Part shown: positions 41,876 to 62,505 of the stretch, in pieces
Position numbering within the stretch: the first letter of the stretch is position 1
Layout of the letters: the number at the start of each line of letters is the position of its first letter
Assembly (NCBI GenBank): GCA_907163375.1
Contig: CAJQUW010008706.1
Location: 248,001 to 312,000 of the forward strand
DNA length: 64,000 bases
From: Prostheceraeus crozeri
Taxonomy: Eukaryota; Platyhelminthes; Polycladida; Euryleptidae
Direction: 5' to 3'
Made by a program: the position numbers and the translations under genes
The notes under the pieces: model-generated
Databases searched by the model: none
The model's input: only the letters and a program-made list of their open reading frames with translations
Told to the model about the DNA's origin: nothing

Positions 41876-41889
41876 GGACTGTCGTAGCT

Positions 41890-43480
41890 CACCTGAAAAA
41901 TCCTAAGTGTCAGAGTGGCTTTGTATGGGTATGTATTTTCCAAAGTGTGGAATTTCGACCTGGGACCGTCACCAAAACATTTTTCATCAAATTTCACTGA
42001 CCTCCCCCCCCCGACAGCAATCTTCTAACTTTGGTTCTAGTGAACGGATTTTGTTCGTTCGAGTTGCATTGGAAAGAGGAGAAAAAACTGCTCAACAACA
42101 TTTTTTGTTGCGAGTCAATCGGACCAGCCGTTCAAAAGTTAGAGCTGTTACAAGATTTTAGGTCGGAGCTCGCTCACCTGAAAAAATCCTGTGTCAGAGT
42201 GGCTTTGTATGGGTAAAATTTTGAAAATTTTCCAAAGTGTGGAATTTCGACCTGGGACCTTCACCAAAACATTTTTCATCAAATTTCACTGACCTCCCCC
42301 CCCCCGACAGCAATCTTCTAACTTTGGTTCTAGTGAACGGATTTTGTTCGTTCGAGTTGCATTGGAAAGAGGAGAAAAAACTGCTCAACAACATTTTTTG
42401 TTGCGAGTCAATCGGACCAGCCGTTCAAAAGTTAGAGCTGTTACAAGATTTTAGGTCGGAGCTCGCTCACCTGAAAAAATCCTGTGTCAGAGTGGCTTTG
42501 TATGGGTAAAATTTTGAAAATTTTCCAAAGTGTGGAATTTCGACCTGGGACCTTCACCAAAACATTTTTCATCAAATTTCACTGACCTCCCCCCCCCCGA
42601 CAGCAATCTTCTAACTTTGGTTCTAGTGAACGGATTTTGTTCGTTCGAGTTGCATTGGAAAGAGTAGAAAAAACTGCTCGACAACATTTTTTGTTGCGAG
42701 TCAATCGGACCAGCCGTTCAAAAGTTAGAGCGGTTACAAGATTTTAGGTCGGAGCTCGCTCACCTGAAAAAATCCTGTGTCAGAGTGACTTTGTATGGGT
42801 AAAATTTTGAAAATTTTCCAAAGTGTGGAATTTCGACCTGGGACCGTCACCAAAACATTTTTCATCAATTTTCACTGACCTCCCCCCCCCGACAGCAATC
42901 TTCTAACTTTGGTTCTAGTGAACGGATTTTGTTCGTTCGAGTTGCATTGGAAAGAGTAGAAAAAACTGCTCGACAACATTTTTTGTTGCGAGTCAATCGG
43001 ACCAGCCGTTCAAAAGTTAGAGCGGTTACAAGATTTTAGGTCGGAGCTCGCTCACCTGAAAAAATCCTGTGTCAGAGTGGCTTTGTATGGGTAAAATTTT
43101 GAAAATTTTCCAAAGTGTGGAATTTCGACCTGGGACCGTCACCAAAACATTTTTCATCAAATTTCACAGACCTCCCCCCCCGACAGCAATCTTCTAACTT
43201 TGGTTCTAGTGAACGGATTTTGTTCGTTCGAGTTGCATTGGAAAGAGGAGAAAAAACTGCTCGACAACAGTTTTTGTTGCGAGTCAATCGGACCAGCCGT
43301 TCAAAAGTTAGAGCGGTTACAAGATTTTAGGTCGGAGCTCGCTCACCTGAAAAAATCCTGTGTCAGAGTGGCTTTGTATGGGTAAAATTTTGAAAATTTT
43401 CCAAAGTGTGGAATTTCGACCTGGGACCGTCACCAAAACATTTTTCATCAAATTTCACTGACCTCCCCCCCCTCTGGACA
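41890..43480. repeat. ~292-bp tandem repeat, more than five units
   Basis: The anchor word CAAAGTGTGGAATTTCGACC recurs at 41941, 42233, 42526, 42819, 43111 and 43402, that is every 291-293 bp. Units are nearly identical and include a run of C (CTCCCCCCCCC). Open frames of 60-90 codons on both strands repeat with the units and are not genes. Tandem repeats in the terminal region are common in Polintons. Confidence 0.95.
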
Positions 43481-43965
43481 GCTAGCTTCGATCTTGGCTT
43501 CTAGTGGACGGATTTTGTCGTGCCATAGCTCGTTTGAGAGCTAAGAGTGAGACAAATTCAGTGAAAGAAACGGCTTGTTCATATCTGTCTTCGTTTAGAT
43601 GTGAGGCGCCATTTAAGATTTTGGGAGACTGTCGAAAAACGATAGAGTTAGAATTTTGGACGTTTTGGGCTGTAGCGTCAAAACGAAGCATCGGATGGGA
43701 AAACGGAGGCCAGATTCGGATTCAGCGTGAAATTCTGCATCGGTATGGTGAGTTTCAAGTCAATCGGAGAGAAAAATTTTCGCTGACGTCCCCCCCCCTC
43801 TGGACAGCTAGCTTCGATCTTGGCTTCTAGTGGACGGATTTTGTCGTGCCATAGCTCGTTTGAAAGCTAAGAGTGAGACAAATTCAGTGAAAGAAACGGC
43901 TTGTTCATATCTGTCTTCGTTCAAAAGTTAGAGCGGTTACAAGATTTTAGGTCGGAGCTCGCTCA
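43479..43965. repeat. Second tandem motif mixed with the 292-bp repeat
   Basis: A ~130-bp segment beginning CTCTGGACAGCTAGCTTCGA occurs at about 43472 and again near 43798, interleaved with pieces of the 292-bp unit (GTTCAAAAGTTAGAGCGGTT at ~43919). Confidence 0.8.
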
Positions 43966-44215
43966 CCTGAAAAAATCCTAAGTGTCAGAGTGGCTTTGTA
44001 TGGGTAAAATTTTGAAAATTTTCCAAAGTGTGGAATTTCGACCTGGGACCGTCACCAAAACATTTTTCATCAAATTTCTCTGAACGAGGGGGGAGGTCAG
44101 TGAAATTTGATGAAAAATGTTTTGGTAAAGGTCCCAGGTCGAAATTCGGAAGTTTTAAATTTTTCAAAATTTTACCCACACTGGAGCTCTCACACTTAGG
44201 AATTTTTTCACTTGT
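43965..44215. repeat. Inverted repeat of the 292-bp unit (large hairpin)
   Basis: The forward piece (from CACCTGAAAAAATCCTAAGT to CATCAAATTTCTCTGAACG) is followed directly by an inverted piece (AGTGAAATTTGATGAAAAAT to CTTAGGAATTTTTTCACTTG). Arms of about 120 bp face each other around ~44088 with almost no spacer. Confidence 0.88.
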
Positions 44216-49584: not shown

Positions 49585-52500
49585 ATTTTCACATTCAATG
49601 TTTAAAATCAAATGTAGATAAATTCAATCAACGCGACAGCGCTCTCATTTTTGATGGTGTGGACTCAGCCATATTCAAAATTTCACTATTAGAAAGTCAT
49701 GCAGCTCGAGGTACATTTAAACTACCAAAAACGTTGTATAATAAGAAAGCTGTCATCAATGTCGATTGTAAATCACAGTGTTTCAAATATGCAGTCCTAT
49801 CCATCCTTCACTATAATGATATCAACGCGAATCGAAATCATACCTATAGCTATAGACAGTGGGAGGATGAACTAGACTTTGAAGGTTGTGATAGTAACAA
49901 CATGAAAATCAAAGATGTAGAAACGTTCGAAAAACATAATAAGATTAAAATTGTCGTTCACGTGTGGGAGAAGGGGTTGAAGGGTGCCCGCTATAATTCA
50001 CGTTCAACTTGTTATGAACGTGTAGTCAACCTCTTATTAGTAAAACAAGATGATAGCGAGGAATGGCACTACTGTGGTATTCCCAAAATCTCTCGCTTGT
50101 ACACTCACTTGGGGCACTCTAAAAGAGGTGAACATTTTGTATGCGACCGCTGCATCCGCTCCTTTTGGAGTAAAGATAAATTTGAAACTCACTATGAATG
50201 GTGCAAGCGAGGTAAATTACAAATGGAACGCATGCCCAAAGATAAAATATTTTCACATAGGGATAATGGTGACCAATTAAGTCCCCTGCGTGTCATTTAC
50301 GCAGACATAGAATGCTACATTGATGATATCATGCACAAGCCAGCAGCCATATCCTGCTATGAAGTATGGCATGACCACTTTAGGAATAGACAAAACAAAA
50401 TGCATACTTGGCAAGGTGAAGATTGCATTTCAAAATTTCTAGAATTTCTCGATAAAGCTGCTAAATTTCAACAATCATATGATTCCCAATTGCAGTGTAG
50501 GTCACTACATATGTCAGATGAAGACAAACAAAAATTTGAAAGTTGCACATCCTGTCCTAAATGTCATAAAACGTTTGATGACGATAAAATTAAGAAAGTG
50601 CGTGATCATGATCACATCACTGGTAAATTTAGAAACGCACTCTGCTCCAAATGTAACTTTTCACTTAGGTTGAGACATCGTACACTACCCGTCATTTTTC
50701 ATAACTTTAAGGGCTATGACAGTCATATGCTCATAAAAGGAGGGTTGAGCCAGATGAAATCGTGGCAGTTTAATGTTATAGCACAAACGAGAGAAAAATT
50801 CATGGCAATGACAGCAAAAGTACCAGTAGATAAAACGAAAGAAAATAAGACAGTCTTCTTCGAAATAAAATTTTTAGATTCATTTCAATTCATGTCAGCG
50901 TCACTAGCTTCTCTCGTTCGAAATCTCAAGTTTCTTCCCCATAGTCAAACTTTGAAGAAACACTATCCAAACTTAACGGATGAAATAATCACTCGCAAAG
51001 GAGTCTTTCCTTATGCGTATTTTAGCTCAATGTCTAAACTAAATGAAACAAACCTTCCTTCCATTGACAAATTCCAAAACGATTTGACGGGTGAAGATTG
51101 TCCAGTAGAGGACTATGAACATGCTCAAGAGGCATGGTTAAAATTTGAATGTAAAACGTTTGGCGATTATATGATCGCTTACTTAGAATTAGATGTCATT
51201 TTGCTGGCTGATGTCTTTCAGGAATTTCGACAAGTGGCATTAGAAGAAGACAAATTAGATCCTGTCCACTTTGTCAGTCTACCAGCCATGTCCTTTAAAT
51301 CAGCCTTTAAAATGACTGGTGAGACCATTCATCTCTTACAAGACCCGGAGATGTATAATATATTTGAGCGCGGAATACGCGGTGGTCTCACATTTGTAAA
51401 TAAACATCATATAAAATCTGAAACAGTAGGTGATGATCATATCCACCTAAAGTACTATGACCAAAATAATTTATATGGCAGTTCACTGTCTAAACCACTA
51501 CCTCATTCCGAGTTTAGTTGGTTAAATCAAGATGAGCTTGAGTATTACTCCAACCCTTCAAACATACTGAAGATTCCAGATGAAGGTGATTGGGGATATT
51601 ATTTTGAAGTGGATTTGATTTATCCAAATAGCATTAAAAATAAAACTGCTGATTTCCCACTCGCACCTGAATCTGGTGAAGTGACTGAAGATATGTTTTC
51701 ACCATTCATGTCACAATTTCATAATAAATTAACAGAGTGTGGACAGCCAAGGTACAAACCATGCCGCAAACTTTTACTCACCCAATATGATAAGAAAAAT
51801 TATCTCGTACACTTCTGCATACTAAAATTCTATTTAGAAATGGGCATGCTTCTAAAGTCAGTTCACCGCATTATCAAATTTAGACAGAAAGCCTTCCTCA
51901 AACCCTACATAGATAGTAACAGTCAAAAACGTGCACTCGCCCAAAATAATTTTGAAAAGGATTTTTATAAATATAAGAATAACAGTCTTTTCGGAAAGAC
52001 CATGGAGGATGTTAGAAAACGTATGAACTACAAACTAGTCGTTGATGAACAAAAATATCACAAATTGACCTCATCACCTCTTTACATTGATAGAGACATC
52101 ATCGATGAGGATCTTGTAGGTGTTAAAATGATAAAATCAGAAGTTGAGTTGTGCAAATCCATCTATATTGGGCAAGCCGTTTTAGATTATTCCAAGCTTG
52201 AAATGTATCAACTCTTTTACAAAATATTAAAACCATGCCCTCTTGTAAAAGAGGTTCGCTTGCTGGGTGGTGATACAGATAGTTTCTTTTTAGGAATTAC
52301 CACTCAAAAAGATTTAAATTTTAATGAAGTAGGCAAGTCATTAGAAAAATATTTCGACACATCTAACTACAATCCCACTCATCCACTCTATTCCATACAG
52401 AATAAAGCCAAACTTGGTTGTTTTAAGGATGAAACAGCAGGAAAGGAAATAGATGAAATGATTCTCCTCCGTCCTAAAATGTATTCCATGAAATTAAAAG

Positions 52501-52808
52501 AATGTGCAGATAGTATTAAGCGTGCTAAAGGTATATCAAAATCCATTGTTCATAAAATGAAACATCGCTCCTATAAGAAGGCCTATAAAAATAAAAATAT
52601 AACGTTTGTCAATATGACAATCTTAAAATCTCAAGTTCATACTGTGAAAACGTACACCTTCAAGAAACGAGCACTTTCAGCATGGGAGGATAAGAGGTGT
52701 TGGATAGGACATAACACATCTCTTCCACATGGACATCCTGACACAAACATACCACCACCCAAAAGAATAAAACTCACGGTACCACATTCAGGAGATGTAT
52801 TGACATAA
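49578..52808 (+). CDS. Protein-primed type B DNA polymerase (Polinton PolB)
   Basis: This 1076-codon frame replicates the element's linear DNA by protein priming. In order: the end of an N-terminal domain, a conserved block with Cys68 and His164, a CCHC zinc site (C189, C192, H205, C209), the exonuclease motif I YADIECYID (D243, E245), an HNH/endonuclease-VII-like insert with CPKC and RDHDHITGKF (343-348), Exo II FHNFKGYDSH (D381), Exo III YLELDVILLADVF (D539, D545), polymerase motif A YYDQNNLYGSS (D628), motif B KNNSLFGKTMED (800 onward) and motif C GGDTDSFF (D899, D901). All catalytic aspartates are present. The frame opens without an ATG because it continues the preceding segment. An AATAAA lies at 52967-52972. 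Confidence 0.93.
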   Translation: MLNFHIQCLKSNVDKFNQRDSALIFDGVDSAIFKISLLESHAARGTFKLPKTLYNKKAVINVDCKSQCFKYAVLSILHYNDINANRNHTYSYRQWEDELDFEGCDSNNMKIKDVETFEKHNKIKIVVHVWEKGLKGARYNSRSTCYERVVNLLLVKQDDSEEWHYCGIPKISRLYTHLGHSKRGEHFVCDRCIRSFWSKDKFETHYEWCKRGKLQMERMPKDKIFSHRDNGDQLSPLRVIYADIECYIDDIMHKPAAISCYEVWHDHFRNRQNKMHTWQGEDCISKFLEFLDKAAKFQQSYDSQLQCRSLHMSDEDKQKFESCTSCPKCHKTFDDDKIKKVRDHDHITGKFRNALCSKCNFSLRLRHRTLPVIFHNFKGYDSHMLIKGGLSQMKSWQFNVIAQTREKFMAMTAKVPVDKTKENKTVFFEIKFLDSFQFMSASLASLVRNLKFLPHSQTLKKHYPNLTDEIITRKGVFPYAYFSSMSKLNETNLPSIDKFQNDLTGEDCPVEDYEHAQEAWLKFECKTFGDYMIAYLELDVILLADVFQEFRQVALEEDKLDPVHFVSLPAMSFKSAFKMTGETIHLLQDPEMYNIFERGIRGGLTFVNKHHIKSETVGDDHIHLKYYDQNNLYGSSLSKPLPHSEFSWLNQDELEYYSNPSNILKIPDEGDWGYYFEVDLIYPNSIKNKTADFPLAPESGEVTEDMFSPFMSQFHNKLTECGQPRYKPCRKLLLTQYDKKNYLVHFCILKFYLEMGMLLKSVHRIIKFRQKAFLKPYIDSNSQKRALAQNNFEKDFYKYKNNSLFGKTMEDVRKRMNYKLVVDEQKYHKLTSSPLYIDRDIIDEDLVGVKMIKSEVELCKSIYIGQAVLDYSKLEMYQLFYKILKPCPLVKEVRLLGGDTDSFFLGITTQKDLNFNEVGKSLEKYFDTSNYNPTHPLYSIQNKAKLGCFKDETAGKEIDEMILLRPKMYSMKLKECADSIKRAKGISKSIVHKMKHRSYKKAYKNKNITFVNMTILKSQVHTVKTYTFKKRALSAWEDKRCWIGHNTSLPHGHPDTNIPPPKRIKLTVPHSGDVLT

Positions 52809-52987: not shown

Positions 52988-54509
52988 TCACTTTGTTTTC
53001 CGAAACACTAAAGTTACGAGGGATTTAGTATCTTTCACCTGGATGCACTCTTGTAAACCATTGGTAATTTTGATAGCAATAGAGGGTATAGTTTGTTTGA
53101 CGACGGGATGATAGAAAATAGATTCAAACATCTTCTCGACTATTCCATATGAAGCGTCTTTATCATGAATGAAATCACGTAAAATGTATTCTTTTTTCTC
53201 ACCAACAGAAATAGGTAGAATCAAATCACTTTGAATGTAAAGGTGCTGTTCATGTTTATCAAGTGTCATTGGTGTTTCTATACCAATCGTATGCGCAGCA
53301 GCAAACACTGTTTGTAGCATTGTAAAACCAAAGAGTTTTTTTCAAATTTTTACTCAATTGACATTGAATGTCATCACCCAGTCTCAGAACAACGCGTTGA
53401 TTTTCAATTGAAAACGAAATGTGGTGTGTCTTTACATCATATTTACTTTTCATCACATGCTTCAACTTCTGTTGTATATAAGGATTTACTACATGAATGA
53501 AGCTTTCAACTGTATGATATAGACGCGGCATTATATTGATAGCAACTTTAGATTCTTCATAAGACTGGTAAATTTTCTTGATGCGATCGCCATAGATGTC
53601 CACCCACCATTCATCATTAACTGAATCAGCTTTAGTGTGATATTCATGAGAAGCATACACCACACCGCTTCCAATAATAGGTGTATAATGTCTTACAAAA
53701 TGACGCAAGGTTGGAGAGAAATAAACTGTAAGTTTGTCATTATATTTCTGAATAACCAACTTATTTTTGTTCGCCATAATTTTCTCTCCATACTTCTTAC
53801 CCACAGTCTCATTCCATCGTTTTACTAACTCAATAAGTGATAAAGGTTGAACACCACGCTTTTTCAAAATGATGCGTTCTTCGCATTCTACAACATCTTC
53901 ATCAAATATTTTAAATCTATAATGAAATTTGTTGATTCGATTTGAATAAACTTTTTTAACATTTGCAGTAGCAATTGATGTTAGATGTAGTCCATGACCA
54001 AAACCAAGATGTGGATAGAATTCATTATCCAACCTCAGCGTAAGACCTTTAGTAAAAGAATGAAAGCGGAGGAACTGTCTCCCACTCCAATGATGGATAG
54101 TAAATTCATAAGCTTTCTGATTTTTATTCTTCATGATGGAAGTATTACCACTGTTGAATGCCTTAATAATTTTCTCATTCCCAAATGGTTCATAAGAATC
54201 TGATTTTATCTGAATCCATTCATAGTTCCACTTTCCATCTGATGTTAAATTGTATGGGAACTGAAATGCATTATTCATCGTTATTCCATCATGGGTGCGA
54301 GGAGTCAATATCATTTCTTCCAAATCATTCACATTCTGAATATTGCTATCATAGCAAATACTAGAAACGCCAACCTCCCATTCACCTTCTAAATGCAGTG
54401 GCCGATTTAATTCTACTCGATAGTCTGATGGTTTATTTTTGGGAAATTTATTCATAGAAGCATTACTGGGCAAGTAGATTAGAAACGAGTCCTTATTTTC
54501 ACTTTCCAT
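52988..54509 (-). CDS. Conserved Polinton virion-type protein A (paralogue of B)
   Basis: The likely start is the ATG at 54509 (MESENKDSFLIYLPSNASM). The N-terminus carries the conserved Polinton block LPSNASMNKFPKNKPSDY followed by LHLEGEWEVGVSSICY. A run of seven A near 53336-53342 coincides with a one-base frame offset: the frame from 54509 stops at 53259, while the C-terminal part continues in another frame from about 53320 to 52988 (HLYIQSDLILPISVGEKKEY). The gene directly upstream (54549-55946) has the same domain order, so these are tandem paralogues. The family is widespread in invertebrate Polintons. A minor capsid, penton or fibre role is plausible but unproven. Confidence 0.75.
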
Positions 54510-54548
54510 ATTATTCACATTGGAAAAATATATTAGCATACGTTTGCA

Positions 54549-55946
54549 TTAACTCTTCATTCGGAAATGGAGTGTGATACTTGTCACAGCATCTTCATGA
54601 AAAGGAATCAACGCACCAGCATCGTCATAAATGGCAATATCAATTTGTGGGATGTAGTTTGATTTCAGCTTTGTATAATGCATTTTCTTGAAAGTATGCT
54701 CAGATAAAATACTGCAGCTTTTTGGCTGGTATGGTATCATTGCTAGCAATGGAGCTTCAACATCTCCCACACGTACATCTTCACCAATATTGGAATATAT
54801 CTGAAAATAGTTAATACGACGCGATAGCGACATGTCTGCGCTAGCTTTGGTTACAGTACCACTTTTAAAGATATTTTGATCAAAACCCAAAATGTCCATT
54901 AGAGTTTTATCCATAATTAGTTCAATACCTTTTCCACTTATAGTGAGAGACAAAGTACCTTCTTTTTCAGAAAATGAAATATGTTGCTCATTAATCACTT
55001 CATTTAAATAATCTACAACCAATTTCACCGAAGTAATAATGCGAGGCATCAACACTCTTGTTTCATGTAAGATAACACCTAAAGGCTGTACACACTTTCT
55101 GTATAAAGATACGGTCCATTCTGTATCAAATTGATTTGACCTTTCACATGGTAAATGTTGCATATCAGATTTTCCATGAACAGCTGCAGAACGATGTCGT
55201 AAGAACTGATGAAAATCTTTTGAACAAACTAATACTAGATCATCATCATTTAATTTGCTTATTGCAATATGATTAGATGATTTAATATAAGTCAATGTTG
55301 CCACTTGTTTGCCATCAACTCGAAGGAGATAATTAAATTTCTTCAATAATGTTTCAGGAGTCATGTTTGTCTTTCTTGGCTTAATCACAATCTTCTTCAC
55401 CAACGTCTTCTCATTTCTTGGAATAAGATCTACATAATAAGCTTCCTCTCGATATATTAACTGTTTATGACCACTTATGTGGTAATTAACGTTAAAATTA
55501 TCATAGCTTGTTAAGGCGCTAGCGAGGTAACCTAAATCATTTCTTAAACTTGGACTTAAACCAACAATCCAATCTTTCTCAACTATATGATGTACATAAT
55601 TGTAATCATCATTGTGCGGAGTAAATTGGACAATATGTTTACTCGCTTTATTCAAGAAATCATATATAAACTTTTTACATGATAAGAGATCTTTCTTTGG
55701 CCACTGTGGAATGTATACTCGGCACCCCTTTTCACATTGATAAGCAGCTGTACGCCTCATATTAATAGTCATCACCTCATGATCAAAAGTATAGACACAG
55801 TTGCTATAAACAAGTTGAGTGACACCCACTTCCCAATTTCCATTTAGCTGTTGTGCATGATCAATGGGAGTAGAAAAGAGTGCGGCTCGATTACTAGTAA
55901 ATCTCTTTGTAGCCGCATTGCTAAGCAAAATATGATAAAACGACAT
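54549..55946 (-). CDS. Conserved Polinton virion-type protein B (paralogue of A)
   Basis: The chosen start is the ATG at 55946 (MSFYHILLSNAATKRFTSNR); an ATG at 55967 is the alternative, and a TATAAAA word sits directly before 55946. The product of ~465 aa shares with protein A an N-terminal block ending NGNWEVGVTQLVY, a central region, and a C-terminal part with RRINYFQIYSNIGEDVRVGD and a terminal beta-rich stretch. It is intact, unlike A. The gap to A is about 40 bases. The divergent plus-strand gene starts at 55982, only 36 bases away. Confidence 0.8.
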   Translation of the reverse strand: MSFYHILLSNAATKRFTSNRAALFSTPIDHAQQLNGNWEVGVTQLVYSNCVYTFDHEVMTINMRRTAAYQCEKGCRVYIPQWPKKDLLSCKKFIYDFLNKASKHIVQFTPHNDDYNYVHHIVEKDWIVGLSPSLRNDLGYLASALTSYDNFNVNYHISGHKQLIYREEAYYVDLIPRNEKTLVKKIVIKPRKTNMTPETLLKKFNYLLRVDGKQVATLTYIKSSNHIAISKLNDDDLVLVCSKDFHQFLRHRSAAVHGKSDMQHLPCERSNQFDTEWTVSLYRKCVQPLGVILHETRVLMPRIITSVKLVVDYLNEVINEQHISFSEKEGTLSLTISGKGIELIMDKTLMDILGFDQNIFKSGTVTKASADMSLSRRINYFQIYSNIGEDVRVGDVEAPLLAMIPYQPKSCSILSEHTFKKMHYTKLKSNYIPQIDIAIYDDAGALIPFHEDAVTSITLHFRMKS

Positions 55947-55981
55947 TTTTATATTGCTGATCTGCAACTTTGCATAACATC

Positions 55982-56338
55982 ATGAAGACTTGGATTTTGG
56001 ACTCTCTACAATATATCAGAGTTGATCGTGATGGAAACGTACATTTCAAAAATTCTCATGGTCATACATCAAGAGGAATTACATCAACATGGCGAAAATT
56101 TGTCAACCTCAATGATATCATGAGGGATTTGGAATATTTTGAAACATTAAGATTCATCTCCTTGGGTGATCAAGTTTGGCTTCAACATTACAGAAATGAA
56201 ATTCAAATCTACCATTCTCATTCCGCAAACTGTTTCTCATTTCGCAAATACAATTGGGAGAAGTATAGAAGATATATACATCGCTCCATCATGACATTTA
56301 TTCGTCGTGAGTTCATCGCCCTACTATGCAAATCTTAA
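55982..56338 (+). CDS. Small protein with two PC4-like modules, copy 1
   Basis: The ATG at 55982 gives 118 aa. Two consecutive modules of ~45 residues each look like strands followed by a helix: residues 11-50 (YIRVDRDGNVHFKNSHG ... FVNLNDIMRDL) and 59-104 (ISLGDQVWLQHYRNEIQIYH ... NWEKYRRYIHRSI). The second matches the pattern of the PC4/p15 C-terminal domain, that is LGxxxxVxVxxxxxxIxIxx followed by a W-containing helix. PC4 is a single-stranded-DNA-binding coactivator of RNA polymerase II. The assignment is by pattern only. The gene is followed 22 bases later by a paralogue and then by the TBP-like gene. Confidence 0.6.
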   Translation: MKTWILDSLQYIRVDRDGNVHFKNSHGHTSRGITSTWRKFVNLNDIMRDLEYFETLRFISLGDQVWLQHYRNEIQIYHSHSANCFSFRKYNWEKYRRYIHRSIMTFIRREFIALLCKS

Positions 56339-56360
56339 TCAGACATGACTACCACACATC

Positions 56361-57011
56361 ATGAGTTGGAAATTAGATTCCCTACAACGTATTGAAACGG
56401 ATCATGATCGAAACGTCTATTTCAAAGATTCAACTGGAAATGTGAGAAGAGAGTTTGCTTTATCTTATCGTCATTTTCAATCTCTACATCATATCATGAA
56501 GGACTTGAAATACTTCTATATGAAAAGACATTCACGTATTGGAAATCGCATCTGGCTGCGCGTCAACAATCGGCGAATTCAACTCTATCATTCCCAACTT
56601 CATACTAACTTCACATTTCATCAAGGTAGTTGGGAAAAGTATAAAAGGAAGGTACATCGCTCAATTTACTCATTATTTCATCATGAAGCGCCATCGCTAC
56701 ACCATCGTCAACATTCTCCGCCGCTTCAGACTCTACACCAAAATCGATCTCACAACATTACACCAACAGCTTCCAAACAGCAAGTATTACCCGGGCCGTC
56801 CTCAAATGTTAGTGGTGAAGATGAACAATTCACGGAATCTTCAACTCTTCCCAAATGGGACTGTACAGATTCTCGGCGCCCTTTCTCATTCATCGGCGCA
56901 GTCAATGCGCTTAGAGCTACAAAGACTACTACGTCGGATATGGAAGAGGGAGAGGTGTGTGATGTCGAATCTGACTGTGGACAATATGGTGATCTCTACT
57001 CAATTGAGTGA
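56361..57011 (+). CDS. PC4-like small protein, copy 2, with overlapping C-terminal extension
   Basis: The first ~105 residues are a paralogue of the preceding gene (MSWKLDSLQRIETDHDRNV; IGNRIWLRVNNRRIQLYHSQ; GSWEKYKRKVHRSI). After that the frame continues for ~110 residues over the start of the TBP-like gene, which uses another frame (overlap 56683-57011). The extension is rich in His, Ser and Pro and then acidic (DMEEGEVCDVESD). The extension is either a real overprinted tail or a fortuitous run-on; the TBP-like frame is clearly the conserved one in the overlap. Confidence 0.6.
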   Translation: MSWKLDSLQRIETDHDRNVYFKDSTGNVRREFALSYRHFQSLHHIMKDLKYFYMKRHSRIGNRIWLRVNNRRIQLYHSQLHTNFTFHQGSWEKYKRKVHRSIYSLFHHEAPSLHHRQHSPPLQTLHQNRSHNITPTASKQQVLPGPSSNVSGEDEQFTESSTLPKWDCTDSRRPFSFIGAVNALRATKTTTSDMEEGEVCDVESDCGQYGDLYSIE

Positions 57012-57228
57012 CAGTCTATCATTTTTGAAGATTCGTACCAGCAGTTACAATTTGTGTTATGAACCCGAACTTTTTCCTGCAGCTCTCATTAGTTGTTGGT
57101 TACCTGTGCATGTGGCAATCTTTCATAATAGTAAAGTGATCATTACTGGACTAAAATCTCATGTACAAGCAAATGTGATCCTAGACTATCTCATTGAGTA
57201 TGTACGTACCCAGCGGATTGTAAAATAA
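56683..57228 (+). CDS. TATA-box-binding protein (TBP) core homologue
   Basis: The ATG at 56683 (MKRHRYTIVNILRRF) gives 181 aa, the length of a TBP core, with the two-fold repeat. Repeat 1 (residues ~6-88) has N10, YYPGRP and LQLFPNGTVQILGA. Repeat 2 (~95-178) has VDNMVISTQLS (N101), CYEPELFPAAL and AIFHNSKVIITGLKS. In TBP two phenylalanines per repeat intercalate into DNA; here F56, F131 and F147 are kept and the fourth position is P40. Both central asparagines (N10, N101) are kept, and one of two groove threonines (T155; the other position is L64). It should bind promoter DNA in the nucleus. The stop overlaps an AATAAA. It could recognise a TATA variant or replace host TBP on element promoters. 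Confidence 0.88.
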   Translation: MKRHRYTIVNILRRFRLYTKIDLTTLHQQLPNSKYYPGRPQMLVVKMNNSRNLQLFPNGTVQILGALSHSSAQSMRLELQRLLRRIWKRERCVMSNLTVDNMVISTQLSDSLSFLKIRTSSYNLCYEPELFPAALISCWLPVHVAIFHNSKVIITGLKSHVQANVILDYLIEYVRTQRIVK

Positions 57229-57259
57229 AAAACAATTTTTCCAACATGATGTTTTTATT
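57224..57259. terminator. Polyadenylation signals overlapping two convergent stop codons
   Basis: AATAAA at 57224-57229 (plus) contains the TAA stop of the TBP-like gene. On the minus strand AATAAA (TTTATT at 57254-57259) contains the stop of the protease gene at 57255-57257. Twenty-six bases separate the two coding ends. Confidence 0.8.
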
Positions 57260-57716
57260 TCAAATCATGATAGAACTTACAAATCATTTTTTCATTAGAG
57301 GATGGATTACATGAAAAGTTTTGAATAATAGATGCAAATCGAGATACATGTAAACGTTTTAAGATGAAGTACAGTACAAAAGCACCACACGTTGATGAAA
57401 GTGGATGTTGTAGTATGCGTTCATTTCGCTGATATTGACGCGTATGTTTTCTCAACCACTGCTGTGTTGGTATATTTGGAGGTTGAGCAAGAGAGTCAAA
57501 TAGTTCACCACGTCGGTCTTCTCCAATAAAGATCGCTTTCCAATGCTCACCGCCTAAATTCTGCGAATGAGTGCTTAGCACAATAAAGATGGGATAGTGA
57601 TTTACTGCAGGTGGTAAGGTATCGAGTGAATAGACATTATCGAAAGCTTTCAACGTCGCTTCGTCTGCATTACGCTGCACTTTAGTCTTAATATCGTCAG
57701 CAGTCAACCAACTCAT
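57255..57716 (-). CDS. Adenain-like maturation cysteine protease
   Basis: This 153-aa protein belongs to the Ulp1/adenain (C5/C48-type) cysteine protease family used by Polintons and adenoviruses to mature virions. The catalytic order is visible: His58 in GGEHWKAIF, Asp74 in GELFDSL, Gln103 before the cysteine loop (LQHPLSSTCGAFVLYF) and Cys110. The start ATG overlaps the stop of the major capsid gene (TAATG arrangement), which fits co-regulated late genes. The frame is intact with no missing key residue. Confidence 0.9.
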   Translation of the reverse strand: MSWLTADDIKTKVQRNADEATLKAFDNVYSLDTLPPAVNHYPIFIVLSTHSQNLGGEHWKAIFIGEDRRGELFDSLAQPPNIPTQQWLRKHTRQYQRNERILQHPLSSTCGAFVLYFILKRLHVSRFASIIQNFSCNPSSNEKMICKFYHDLK

Positions 57717-58993
57717 TAACGATTATACTGAAGAATCACGTCACGATACTTTGTAATTTCAATGTTTGAATCGAAGACTGCATAAATTAATACATTGATC
57801 GTCTCAGGTAGTGTTCTTTTGAACGTCAAATCCAAACGAATATTATGAGGCACGTTCGCTTGACGATAGGGTGCACTAATATCGCTGTCAGCAGTCAAAT
57901 CAAATGCATAAATAGTATATCCACTCTTAAACTCTTTCATAGTCAGTCCGTTGGTGTCATCCGTATTGTAAAAGCCAAAGACATCCATAAAATCAACATA
58001 ACTGCGCATAAATTGATCCGCAGCAAAATCTGGTTTGTAGGGTGGACCAGGATGACTCACACCATTTACACGTAAAGCAATTTCACTTAACTGATTGTGT
58101 TTAAAATTGAAAGGATTCTTCTTTATATTACCATTAAATGCGTCATTTTCAACCATTGCCACCATGAGGAGCTTCGGTGCTTCCGATGGAAAGAGGCCAT
58201 CTTTCATGAAACTCTTTTGATCTTTAGGAATTGTAAAGGTGAGAAGCTTTGTATGCTGAACGGGGTAAATGGCATTTTGGCGGTTAAGACCTTCAGCATG
58301 TCCTCTAATGACACTTGGATTCGGTATTACTCGACGAATGTAAAGTGCAATATCTTCCACATGAATTCTAAAATTGTCAACTTTAGCAAATGCATTCAGC
58401 GCAAATTCAGGCTTATTCAATGTCAGCTTGAGTCGCATGCTTGTATTACAGAGTAAAAACTTTGACTGTCTAAAGAAGTCTAAATTTAGCGGACCATATA
58501 GCTGACATACTCTACTATCTTTAATCATAGCAGATCGCTTTACAAAGCCACTGTTTGTTTCAACATCAAATTTTCCTGCTTCATCTCTGTACCATCCCAT
58601 GGCTTCCATATGACTTTTTTGTGCTGCTGGATGAAACTGTGATACATGATTGAAATATGATTTATAGGGATAATCGCTTTGACCACCTTCCACCTGCTGC
58701 TCTCCAATCGTTATAGAAACATCACGAAGTAATGTAGTCAATGGTAAATTGTTCAGCCCAACTTTATGTGCATCGTCAATAGCAGTTCCATCTGCTTGCT
58801 GAATTCTAAACCTCAAATCAAGCATCGCATAACTCAAATCTATGTAGTCATCACTACCACCAGGAATAACAAATTCAATGGGGCCAGCATTCTCAGCTGT
58901 TCGAGGATGATAATCTACAATACTTGAACTAAGAATATCTGTCTGTATGGCTTGTTGATCGAACAAACAAAAACCAGAAGTTTTACACTCCAT
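57716..58993 (-). CDS. Major capsid protein (F54H12.2 family)
   Basis: This 425-aa protein is of the family often annotated F54H12.2-like in invertebrate genomes, the Polinton major capsid protein, expected to be a double jelly roll. Recognisable blocks are SSIVDYHPRTAENAGPIEFV near the N-terminus, PGGSDDYIDLSYAMLDLRF, GGQSDYPYKSYFNHV, KKNPFNFKHNQLSEIALRVN and SGYTIYAFDLTADSD near the C-terminus. The length is close to that of small double-jelly-roll capsid proteins. The frame is intact. It lies between the protease and the pVI-like gene, each joined by overlaps or gaps of under five bases. Confidence 0.9.
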   Translation of the reverse strand: MECKTSGFCLFDQQAIQTDILSSSIVDYHPRTAENAGPIEFVIPGGSDDYIDLSYAMLDLRFRIQQADGTAIDDAHKVGLNNLPLTTLLRDVSITIGEQQVEGGQSDYPYKSYFNHVSQFHPAAQKSHMEAMGWYRDEAGKFDVETNSGFVKRSAMIKDSRVCQLYGPLNLDFFRQSKFLLCNTSMRLKLTLNKPEFALNAFAKVDNFRIHVEDIALYIRRVIPNPSVIRGHAEGLNRQNAIYPVQHTKLLTFTIPKDQKSFMKDGLFPSEAPKLLMVAMVENDAFNGNIKKNPFNFKHNQLSEIALRVNGVSHPGPPYKPDFAADQFMRSYVDFMDVFGFYNTDDTNGLTMKEFKSGYTIYAFDLTADSDISAPYRQANVPHNIRLDLTFKRTLPETINVLIYAVFDSNIEITKYRDVILQYNR

Positions 58994-58995
58994 GA

Positions 58996-59451
58996 TTAGA
59001 AGTTATAGCAGCGTCGTCGTTTAGCGCCTGATGAATGATTAGAGCCTCTGCGACGTTTGCGTGAATGCCTTTTGACTGAAGATCGCACCTTACCAGCTCC
59101 GCGATGTTTCCTCCTTCCTTCTTTCATTCGTTTAGGTGGTTTCTTTCCTTGAGTAACACCAGCAAAGGTCTGCTTCAATGTTTTTAAACCGCGTTCTTTC
59201 CCACGATTCAACAAACTGCTCTTGAAACTTCTACCTCTGGAAAGATCACTAGCAACATCACCAGCAAAGCCAACGGCATTACTTAAAACATTTCGTTTTA
59301 AAGATCTACCGACATTGGATATGAGAGGTGCTACAACAGATTTCAGTGCACCAAGTATGCTACCTCCACGTTGGCGGCGAGCGCCGATGTAAATTTGTCC
59401 TCCACCACTTACATAGGAGGGTCGTGAATAAAATGAGGCAGTTGGATTCAT
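58996..59451 (-). CDS. Basic minor capsid protein (pVI-like Polinton family)
   Basis: The 151-aa product has a Tyr/Gly-rich N-terminus (SYVSGGGQIYIGARRQRGG), an amphipathic stretch (SILGALKSVVAPLISNVGRS), the conserved helix region NAVGFAGDVASDLSRGRSFK and a strongly basic tail (RKHRGAGKVRSSVKRHSRKR). This layout is typical of a small Polinton virion protein compared with adenovirus pVI or core proteins: membrane-active amphipathic helix plus DNA-binding tail. It is two bases upstream of the capsid gene in the same orientation. Confidence 0.78.
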   Translation of the reverse strand: MNPTASFYSRPSYVSGGGQIYIGARRQRGGSILGALKSVVAPLISNVGRSLKRNVLSNAVGFAGDVASDLSRGRSFKSSLLNRGKERGLKTLKQTFAGVTQGKKPPKRMKEGRRKHRGAGKVRSSVKRHSRKRRRGSNHSSGAKRRRCYNF

Positions 59452-59492
59452 AGCTCAAACCCTAAACATTGTTAGTTACAACTTTGCATGAA

Positions 59493-60759
59493 TCACTGTC
59501 GATCACTTAGATGAAAGATGTCGGCACGACGCATCCAAGAGTTCATACTTGAAGGATAACCAGTCCATTTAACAAGACACCATTCTTCACCTTGCCGTTT
59601 TTTACATCGAATGATTTTCTCTACCAAATATGTTTCACTTTCAGTGACTACCTCAATCTCATCGCGGTAAAAGCTACCCTCAATTTCTTCATTATCGTAA
59701 TCTTTCAACTTGTAGGAGGTCGGAGAGTCTTTTTGATTAATCCTTGATACTGTAAATACCTCCTCTGTCCAATTCGGAAGGTACCCTTTAGCAAAAACAC
59801 TTTTCACTTTTGAGATACGAACTTTATCACCAATTTTCACATCACTTTTCACATGAGTGCGTTTACGTTGGAATGATTCGTGCACTTTATCTACATTGTC
59901 AGCATTTACATCTACTGGTCTGAGTCCAATAGAACGATGGATAGAGTGATTGTAGGCATGGAGTGTATCTTGTAGAACCTTTGTCCAATTTTGTGTCAAG
60001 TTGGCAGTAAAATGTCGCCATAAGCGATTTTTTCATGTGCGATTAAAACGTTCAACGAGTGCAGCTTTATAAGCACTCTTTACACTAAACAACTCAATGT
60101 CATGCCTCTCAAATAATCTTGTCACATGCTGATTTTCAAACTCTTTTCCTTGATCACTCTGAATTCTTTTTGGAATGCGACCTTCTCGAAAAATTGTTTG
60201 GAATGCTTTTGCTACTCCTTTCCCTTCTTTAGTTTTTAAAGGTTGAGCCCACGCATAACGCGAGAAAATATCAATGACGGTTAAAATAAAATTATTGCCC
60301 GAGTTATGTTTTGAAATGGAGGCAACATCACACAAATCTGCTTGCCACTCTTCATCGATGTCATGAACAATATAATGGCGGGTGCGGTACTTCTTTTTCG
60401 CTTGTTTGTGGAGTGTATAGGTAGCCTGACCCTTTAACCATCGTTTCACTTGTGATTGTGGAAGACCACTCGCTTTTGATAATTTCTTGATAGATGCAAA
60501 TCCTGCCGGATGTTTTACATCATAATAGATTGACTTCAAACGTTCAGTCGATGACGACTGACTCTTTTTCCTCCTTCTCATCTTTTTGTTTTCTTGCCTT
60601 TCTACATTTACAACAACTGCAGCATTTAGCTTTAGCGGTTTTGCGATCGTGTTCACATTGCTTAGGGGTTTCATTATGAGCGCTGGCGCAGCAAGTGCAA
60701 GTGACAACGACATTCACCTCTGGCGGCTCATTACATGGCAAGCAACACATCTGCTTCAT
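59493..60759 (-). pseudogene. Retroviral-type integrase with chromodomain, frame-broken
   Basis: The gene likely starts at ATG 60759 with a cysteine-rich segment (MKQMCCLPCNE; later CCSCCKCRKAR), then shifts frame by one base near an A-rich run at ~60560-60600 into the main integrase frame. That contains an HTH-like block (ASIKKLSKASGLPQSQVKRW), the catalytic core with D in WQADLCDV (~60337), D in IQSDQGKEFEN (~60154) and E in LVERFNRT (~60052), 33 residues between the last two. An in-frame TGA at 60033-60035 follows. The C-terminal part reads on in the same frame to a chromodomain (YLVEKIIRCKKRQGEEW; LVKWTGYPSSMNSW). It integrates Polinton DNA into the genome. The two breaks make this copy doubtful as a functional enzyme unless they are sequence errors. 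Confidence 0.85.
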
Positions 60760-60760
60760 A

Positions 60761-61453
60761 TTAATAGTCTGAGAACATGTATTTCCTAGGAGGAGCTGTT
60801 TTACGTTTTCCTTTTACTAGTTTTAGTGGTGATGTAGATCTACGTCGAGTTCTTCCTCTTGTTTGCTTAGTGAGTGTGGGAGGGGATGTAGCAGGTGACG
60901 TCTTAAACCAATTTGTTGGCATTTTCATCGCCTGAAGCATTGGAGCAGTAGCCACTGTTGAATCAAGTCCTTTCAATGTCTCATTATTTAAAGCAAATTT
61001 TGGCACATTATGCTTTTTCAATAGTTTAAGAAAGTATGACCAACCAGGTGGAACATAGCCCTGACGGCGCTTTCTACGTGTCGCATACTGAATCAAGTCT
61101 TCATAACGTGAAGCATCAATCACTTTATTTTCATCTGTAATGATTTCTCCTCTTTCATTTACATTGAGATGGGGTTCAATACTCTTGAAAAGAGATATGG
61201 CATGTGCGCGAGATGCTAAAAGTGTAGCAGTCGATACAGAGTCACGCATCTTATTCTTCAAGTTTTTCAATTGCTCAACAGTTTCCGATTGTAATAATAC
61301 AGCACGATGTGGATCTTTGATGTGAACATTTTGCTGATAATCTATTTCTTTCCTATACATTTGATTTGCAAGAGGTTGCTTTACTTGCTGCATGGCAGTC
61401 AATTGTACATATTCATCCTGAGGAATAACAATCATGCGAGAATAAGAACTCAT
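60761..61453 (-). CDS. Conserved Polinton basic protein of unknown function
   Basis: The 230-aa product starts MSSYSRMIVIPQDEYVQLTA, contains a DPHRAVLLQSETVEQLKN block with predicted helix, a middle domain (YATRRKRRQGYVPPGWSYFL) and a basic proline/serine-rich tail (TKQTRGRTRRRSTSPLKLVK). This arrangement next to the packaging ATPase recurs in invertebrate Polintons. Its start overlaps the ATPase stop (ATGA). It is likely a virion or DNA-packaging accessory protein, but no function is assigned. Confidence 0.65.
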   Translation of the reverse strand: MSSYSRMIVIPQDEYVQLTAMQQVKQPLANQMYRKEIDYQQNVHIKDPHRAVLLQSETVEQLKNLKNKMRDSVSTATLLASRAHAISLFKSIEPHLNVNERGEIITDENKVIDASRYEDLIQYATRRKRRQGYVPPGWSYFLKLLKKHNVPKFALNNETLKGLDSTVATAPMLQAMKMPTNWFKTSPATSPPTLTKQTRGRTRRRSTSPLKLVKGKRKTAPPRKYMFSDY

Positions 61454-62067
61454 GGTTTGTAGATAATCATGGGAGTTTTCAAAATATCACTTCGAAATCT
61501 AAATTCTTCCGGACACTCTTGCGTAAAGTCAATGAATAAGTAACCGTATGGTTTTTCAGTAGCTGCTTGAAAAATTTCAATTAAGGCTTTTGATCCTCTG
61601 GGTGCAACTTGTCGCGCTAAAATTTCAAATTGACTTTTATCTCGCGGATTCTTGAAAATAGCATAATAGTGTGTATTCAGGTTTCGTGTACGAGCTTTTT
61701 TTCCATCAGGAAACAAATTTTGTGTGATATAGATGATAAAACACCTTTTATGATGTGCTGCACGAGTGAACATATCTGTAACATCTTTGAATTCTTACTT
61801 TCTTTTAATAAATCATCCAATACAACAACATCATTAGACTGAAGTTTATCCACTGGAATAATTCCTTCATGTCGAATAAAGTTGCGACTTTGCAATTCCT
61901 GAAACAACGACGGTTGATAAATACCATAACACCAAATCACTCGATTGATAGGTTCCTTAAACAACTCCCTTCTTTTATCCAATAAATTCAGCGTGAAAAA
62001 CAGTTTTACCTGCATGAGATGGACCTGATACAGTCAGAACTTTATCACATTGAAGTCTGAAATCCAT
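61450..62067 (-). pseudogene. Genome-packaging ATPase (FtsK/HerA-type), two frame offsets
   Basis: The start is ATG 62067 (MDFRLQCDKVLTVSGPSHAG). Walker A (SGPSHAGKT) is just before a one-base offset near a T-run at ~61999. The next frame holds NRVIWCYGIYQPSLFQELQ and the Walker B strand NDVVVLDDLL (61806-61835). A second offset near 61785 leads to the last frame, MFTRAAHHKRCFIIYITQNLF, TRNLNTHYYAIFKNPRDKSQ and the end. This is the A32-like motor that packages viral DNA into capsids. All diagnostic motifs are present but spread over three frames. Confidence 0.85.
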
Positions 62068-62098
62068 TTTATTACTTTGAGATTCAACATTTGCATAA

Positions 62099-62455
62099 TT
62101 AACGCTTAGAGCCAAAGATATTACCCAATAGGTTGCCCACGGCAGGAGCTATCATTGGAAGTATTGCTGAAAGGAAACCACCCTTTTGTGTTAGAGTTTT
62201 CCTCTTTCTTTGAAGGGCGACTTTAGGATTGGAGATGAAACGCAATTTCGTAGCATATCGCTTAAGTAACTTTCGTTGTTTTGGCGCTAATTTCTTCGTC
62301 CTTAACTTCCTCACATGAGAAATAATTTCACGGATGAATTTATCATTAGCATGTCGTATAGCATTGTATCGCTGATTTGCTTTCATTCGTCGGAGAGCTT
62401 GAATGGCTGAAGAAAACTTTTGACTTTTACGTTTCGCCATTTTACGTTTCGCCAT
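62099..62455 (-). CDS. Small basic minor protein with QKGGFL motif
   Basis: The 118-aa protein has a duplicated start (MAKRKMAKRK), a basic helical body (AIQALRRMKANQRYNAIRHA; LAPKQRKLLKRYATKLRF) and the conserved C-terminal signature LTQKGGFLSAILPMIAPAVG followed by LLGNIF. Proteins of this layout are present in most invertebrate Polintons and are thought to be virion components; the hydrophobic Gly-rich end recalls adenovirus core protein X-like products. The frame is intact. Confidence 0.78.
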   Translation of the reverse strand: MAKRKMAKRKSQKFSSAIQALRRMKANQRYNAIRHANDKFIREIISHVRKLRTKKLAPKQRKLLKRYATKLRFISNPKVALQRKRKTLTQKGGFLSAILPMIAPAVGNLLGNIFGSKR

Positions 62456-62505
62456 TTTCCGTGTTAGTCTTTGCTAAACCTATCTTTACCACATTTGCAT
62501 AGGTA

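Follow-up and report, generated by a model that had tools for sequence, protein, structure and literature searches.

Polintons, or Mavericks, are placed near the root of the eukaryotic dsDNA viruses, and to our knowledge there is no account of how a Polinton switches from dormant insertion to virion production. The element described here shares with animal Polintons/Mavericks (adintovirus-like) an rve integrase. It also has a probable C48-like protease and candidate genes for PolB, an ATPase and a capsid-like protein (the latter three recognised by eye), and terminal inverted repeats occur in related copies; it differs from the animal Polintons in that it carries a gene for a TATA-binding protein (TBP). 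Virus-coded factors that serve late promoters together with host Pol II are known from KSHV (ORF24) and EBV (BcRF1); these are described as TBP mimics that act with other viral proteins, whereas the Polinton protein is a homologue within Pfam family PF00352. The late box of gammaherpesviruses is a TATA variant. Compared with eukaryotic and archaeal TBPs, the element protein has the two-lobed core of 180 amino acids, N10 and N101, three of the four Phe, the C-lobe Thr and the TFIIB glutamates in common, but in nearly all of the 139 sequences compared its N-lobe carries the exchanges F to P, L to Q, V to Q and T to L. According to PMC7221094, the TBPs encoded by giant viruses, by other dsDNA viruses and by poxviruses are variable at the TFIIB-contact glutamates (C.L3.2/C.L3.4) and, poxviruses apart, mostly accompanied by a viral TFIIB; the Polinton TBP is likewise virus-borne and two-lobed, but keeps these glutamates, and a TFIIB gene was not detected in the element. 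TBPL1/TLF is, according to the same source, also a diverged TBP paralogue with a changed N-lobe residue (L5.1 is Trp; PMC7221094), but it is a host gene, and the element TBP keeps L5.1 (F56, by alignment) and has Pro at the other N-lobe Phe. Mirusvirus-like elements of a green alga carry TBPs (PMC10675990). In the main text of the related-virus preprints PMC11071308 and PMC11071296 TBP is absent, and the main text of PMC12220804, checked for TATA and TFIIB, does not mention TBP. Among the titles and abstract starts covered, which include subscription journals only slightly, a Polinton TBP was not found.

The window, i.e. the whole stretch of DNA analysed, comprises 64,000 nucleotides of the polyclad Prostheceraeus crozeri (assembly GCA_907163375.1, contig CAJQUW010008706.1, positions 248,001 to 312,000). 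An open frame of 181 codons at 56683..57228 (+) encodes the TBP homologue. A preliminary description made from the sequence alone had already proposed an intact TBP gene of this length, and N10, N101, F56, F131, F147, Pro40, Leu64 and the blocks CYEPELFP and VIITG are all found at the positions it gave. Homology and two-fold repeat, hitherto judged by eye, are now borne out by profiles: PF00352 matches in two stretches with an E value of 9.9e-21 and 73.8 bits (cut-off 22.9), and ten NCBIfam models for the TATA-box-binding protein match (best E 1.2e-18), all of them under their curated cut-offs. A phmmer search of the PDB gave 35 distinct chains (best E 4.2e-13), named TBP, TFIID-1 or TBP fusion with the exception of 4wzs_D ("ECU04_1440 protein"). 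The profile of the TBP family alignment (A1), all 62 members of which match PF00352, finds 2z8u as best PDB entry (E 1e-24, span 2-176), and a profile-to-profile comparison with three cellular TBPs gave a probability of 99.4 and an E value of 2.2e-21. The host has a canonical TBP gene of its own elsewhere, on contig C9306. Identity of the window protein to a 154-residue fragment of the host TBP is 26% over 151 residues, which confirms the strong divergence that had been noted.

Outside the host genome, 61 of 97 candidates match the window TBP and 1144 of 4906 match the TBP profile; the best 120 of these 1144 all have PF00352, and the remaining ones may include cellular TBPs. Metagenomic contigs are among the carriers of such homologues, for instance those of P0021, P0022, P0046 and P0047, the longest of which measure 16-25 kb. 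IMG/VR, scanned with the window TBP, profile A1 and the capsid protein, and prokaryote contigs, scanned with profile A1, gave no relatives. The phage records contain a single weak match (E 0.09), annotated as the TBP of a haloarchaeal virus. Cellular TBPs used as queries brought up two viral TBPs, on the IMG/VR contigs L074 and L075, which are of cellular type and 50-51% identical to the query TBP.

The window copy represents family A of these elements. As had been stated, the TBP gene lies inside the virion gene block; it is located between the genes for vp465 and the protease. A terminal-type tandem array with units of about 290 nt occupies 41887..44210. It is followed by PolB (49902..52808, +), which we take to be a DNA polymerase B of the protein-primed type from its exonuclease and DTDS motifs, recognised by eye; Pfam, PHROGs and PDB contain no polymerase match to it, and the libraries give an endonuclease VII finger. 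The putative virion protein vp465 (54549..55946, −) is named by position; vp426 (53259..54539, −; probable start codon at 54509) is partly similar to it. ORF118 (55982..56338, +), with five database homologues of 41-98% identity, is a paralogue of the N-terminal half of ORF216 (56361..57011, +), and the C-terminal half of the latter overprints the TBP gene. This overprinting of the TBP start was discarded as a general feature, being copy-specific: in copy L044 the ORF ends at the TBP start. The tandem paralogues (55982-57011) are kept beside the TBP gene in family A, and a relative of ORF118 is found in family D (25% identity, E 0.001). ORF118 and ORF216 might conceivably be ssDNA-binding proteins of PC4 type. 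On the other side of the TBP gene lie the probable cysteine protease PRO (57255..57716, −; Peptidase_C48 E 0.0021, below cut-off, its family D orthologue reaching 6.9e-5, above cut-off), the putative major capsid protein MCP (57716..58993, −), which is named by position and recall and has no match in Pfam or PDB, and p151 (58996..59451, −), by eye a small, basic, Gly-rich protein of virion type that heads the p151-MCP-PRO run. The integrase core (60033..60713, −; rve E 3.6e-10) is interrupted, with a chromodomain-like tail, recognised by eye, in another frame at about 59.5-59.6 kb; this tail (59500-59610) is directly upstream of p151. Then come p230 (60761..61453, −), the putative packaging ATPase (61450..62067, −; Walker A motif GPSHAGKT by eye), which is in two frames in the window copy, and the basic protein p118b (62099..62455, −), with a weak Adeno_PX match below cut-off (E 0.0023). 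The right end of the element lies beyond the window; terminal inverted repeats were found in a family C copy and in a family D copy. A fragment of a ligand-gated channel is also present in the window. A COX1 match elsewhere in the genome contains eight internal TGA codons read through in the manner of animal mitochondria, and from these two features the host is taken for an animal.

The TBP gene is an integral part of the element. The window TBP finds at least 150 places in the genome, all at 99-100% identity and stop-free; among the matches listed, 99, the window's own included, are identical to it. For the window capsid protein 99 places were listed, and on all eight contigs common to both match lists the TBP and capsid genes are 494-495 nt apart. 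Twenty copies chosen by their capsid gene all have the TBP gene, and in 17 of them it is gap-free and of full length. These 17 copies contain 8 distinct nonsynonymous and 10 distinct synonymous changes at 420 and 123 sites, respectively, a departure from neutrality (binomial p 0.0025) which indicates that the gene is under purifying selection. Pairwise dN/dS in family C is 0.13-0.44 for six of the ten copies tried (three dropped for gaps, one for being a base short), values that are biased downwards, since all ten were picked from protein-score lists.

Related families keep the gene as well. Family B (L040) has the gene order of the window, with 42.7% identity in TBP and 54% in the capsid protein, and in families B and E the TBP gene is at the same place with about 30-45% identity; in family E (L078) it stands between protease and vp465, frame-broken in this copy. 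The conservation at the same locus that the preliminary description had suggested looking for by tblastn is thus found in B and E, and family C has the gene beside PolB. At the family C loci L039, L041, L042 and L043 identities per aligned piece are 38-57% for TBP and 58-72% for the adjoining PolB, the TBP frame being split in L041 and L043. The homologue P0022, used as query against the genome, gave at least 150 further places at 45-47%, with a stop in 5 of the 150 listed; the copies examined from it belong to family C. In the one whole family C copy (C1819), which is bounded by inverted repeats, tblastn with the window genes detected no capsid, protease, ATPase or integrase. A search with the family B capsid gave 100 matches, 95 of them at 58-60%, and the two such loci examined represent a further family, D. 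Between the terminal repeats of a family D copy on C3940 virion genes and integrase are present and tblastn found no PolB or TBP; the TBP profile, run in six frames on every family D piece, gave nothing, and the same profile finds the genes of A, B, C and E. The array by the right terminal repeat of this copy shares up to 95.9% identity with the window array at 43.8-44.1 kb. The gene sets of the two families are complementary: D (L080-L083, C3940) has virion genes and integrase, C (L043/L065/L066, C1819) has PolB and TBP. Such complementary copies, both bounded by inverted repeats, could possibly be split or helper-dependent Polintons.

The window TBP and its 138 homologues, 139 sequences in all, were compared residue by residue. 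Their C-lobe keeps the canonical residues (N101 139/139, V103 139/139, F131 138/139, F147 139/139, T155 137/139), and the glutamates of the TFIIB contact, which PMC7221094 names C.L3.2/C.L3.4, are kept (E127 in 135/139, with D in the other four; E129 in 139/139). At position 10 a residue is present in 116 sequences, and in 115 of these it is Asn. The DNA face of the N-lobe is uniformly altered, with P40 in 133/136, R51 in 135/139, Q54 in 135/139, Q62 in 139/139 and L64 in 122/139; the corresponding residues of three cellular references are F, T or V, L, V or N, and T, respectively. In TBP these positions face the DNA, and the C-lobe lies on the 5′ half of the TATA box. Three of the four DNA-intercalating Phe are present and the first N-lobe site is Pro40, which is a departure from canonical TATA binding and leaves the homology unaffected. 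TFIIB gave four matches on two host contigs (seven candidates, all scored); since these are the only ones found in the genome, none was detected within the element. The parallel to large DNA viruses drawn earlier applies to the virus-borne TBP, but it does not extend to the glutamates, which are kept here, or to TFIIB, which was not found outside two host contigs. From the conserved residues, the element TBP is likely to be a promoter factor.

Candidate promoter boxes were found in front of virion genes. Six of the 16 window genes have the heptamer ATGCAAA in the 100 nt upstream of them: vp465 (55969..55975, −, within TATGCAAA, 30 nt before the ATG), vp426 (54543..54549, −, 41 nt before the probable ATG), ORF216 (56326..56332, +, 36 nt), p151-MCP-PRO (59483..59489, −, CATGCAAA, 38 nt), ATPase-p230 (62090..62096, −, 30 nt before the probable ATG) and p118b (62494..62500, −, 46 nt). 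As we read the map, these six genes head virion gene runs. In 1000 random sets ATGCAAA never reached five upstream regions, and some 7-mer reached six in 6 of the sets. The stricter motif (T/A)A(A/T)GCAA at −55..−28, which the p151 box fails, is present in 5 of 16 window genes, the starts of vp426 and ATPase having been placed by eye before the count (five or more in 0/5000 random sets), and in 5 of 11 genes of family B (four or more in 0/5000), where the starts of p136 and p176 are approximate and non-ATG and one of the five boxes (MCP) is within Lys-rich coding DNA; the GCAA motif, with the forms TATGCAAA and TAAGCAAA, was itself derived by inspecting families A and B. Of two boxes predicted for family B before further sequence of this family was read, that of p118b was found and that of ATPase was absent, and of the TBP genes predicted, along with the box, for D and E only that of E was found.

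A matrix built from A and B, applied to E and D sequences that had already been viewed, gave a Fisher p of 1.5e-4 for four heads in E (0.0013, 0.0091, 0.046 and 0.38; inner genes 0.39, 0.47 and 0.88) and of 7.9e-7 for five heads in D (0.0024, 0.0037, 0.0047, 0.0071 and 0.17; inner genes 0.09, 0.55 and 0.44; other genes 0.99, 0.033 for p112, 0.85, 0.09 and 0.42), a D copy on C8677 in low-complexity DNA being excluded from the promoter counts. In family C, in whose one whole copy no virion genes were detected, three of nine genes are below 0.04 (0.007, 0.009 and 0.035). The fit is poor at the ATPase heads of B, D and E and at the p151 head of E, and E has the exact motif at one head only. Altogether, of the virion-gene heads tested, most in A, B and D and fewer in E are preceded by a (T/A)A(A/T)GCAA-like box, at a distance of about 30-50 nt from the ATG. 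Three of the six window boxes match the POU octamer ATGCAAAT perfectly; the boxes in B, D and the single exact E head read AAGCAA, unlike that octamer. The TBP gene itself is preceded by TATAAAAGG (56640..56648, +), 43 nt before its ATG, and the TATA form TATAAAAG recurs before TBP at −43 in A, −46 in B (L040) and −43 in C (L043); this conservation is not independent of coding, because the bases overlap the Tyr-Lys-Arg codons of the upstream ORF.

The rebuilt N-lobe and the shared box are two patterns that fit each other, from which we infer that the element TBP may read the GCAA box. The reading that we favour is that the Polinton uses a working TBP paralogue as a core-promoter factor of its own, which would serve the late virion genes together with host TFIIB; judged from sequence, we consider this proposal to stand at even chances. 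Host TBP would read the TATA box of the TBP gene and so bring about early production of the element TBP. The latter would then bind the GCAA-like box, with the C-lobe on the kept 5′ TAW half and the rebuilt N-lobe tolerating the G-C centre, and the conserved C-lobe glutamates would recruit host TFIIB and Pol II for late virion-gene expression. Against a strict link between reader and box, the TBP-less family D carries the box, so that either the TBP works in trans or something else reads the box. The promoter recognition of its own that the preliminary description had ascribed to the element is plausible, with the rebuilt N-lobe and the box at virion heads in its favour and the box of family D against it. 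An element TBP with a rebuilt DNA face and a box at virion heads would make the switch from dormancy to virion directly testable and, if the proposal is true, a TBP with half its saddle changed and the TFIIB face kept would make TBP's own promoter specificity testable.

A less probable, though serious, alternative is that the element TBP binds ordinary TATA-like sites and raises the TBP supply or evades regulators of host TBP, the GCAA box being read by another factor, either a host factor or a DNA-binding protein of the element. In its favour are the box in TBP-less family D and the TATAAAAG that precedes the TBP gene in A, B and C, and the POU octamers in half of the window boxes would fit another reader; but nearly all 139 sequences share the same substitutions at the TATA contacts of the N-lobe, and the AAGCAA boxes of B, D and the one exact E head speak against a reader of POU type. 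Should the protein bind DNA poorly, as Pro40 in place of a DNA-kinking Phe might suggest, it could, with its TFIIB glutamates retained, be a decoy that titrates host TFIIB or blocks host promoters. This is unlikely: the protein retains both Asn, the C-lobe Thr and all but one of the four Phe, the gene is under purifying selection, and an invariant new DNA face would be needless for a decoy. Slightly less likely again is a role outside transcription, as a protein that bends DNA in replication or packaging, for which the TBP gene adjoining PolB in a family C copy without virion genes could be quoted; a pure bender would hardly need E127 and E129, which are near invariant. The probability of an assembly chimera or a host TBP pseudogene, the danger raised at the outset, is negligible. 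The at least 150 near-identical places and the homologues in other element families rule it out, all 20 sampled copies are in element context, and the gene is distinct from the host TBP on C9306.

Returning to the element TBP as promoter factor, a wider version of it would be a multipartite Polinton system with its own promoter code, in which a rebuilt TBP that reads TAWGCAA is supplied by A, B and E, which have both sets of genes, and by C, which has PolB and TBP but no virion genes. Family D, which bears a capsid gene but lacks PolB and TBP, and by whose terminal repeat there is an array about 95% identical to that of A, would depend on these elements in trans for its expression and replication, by virtue of the box and ends that it shares with them. 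We put this forward as a doubtful extension only, somewhat less probable than the reading with ordinary TATA sites.

Copy L044 is 85% identical to the window at the PolB end and mostly 95-100% identical in the genes from vp426 rightwards, a step that suggests recombination between element lineages. Contigs C1764, C6222, C381, C2643, C12105 and C2762 contain family C-type TBP copies arranged as inverted pairs with a spacing of about 2-8 kb, and locus L042 contains an inverted pair of PolB genes.
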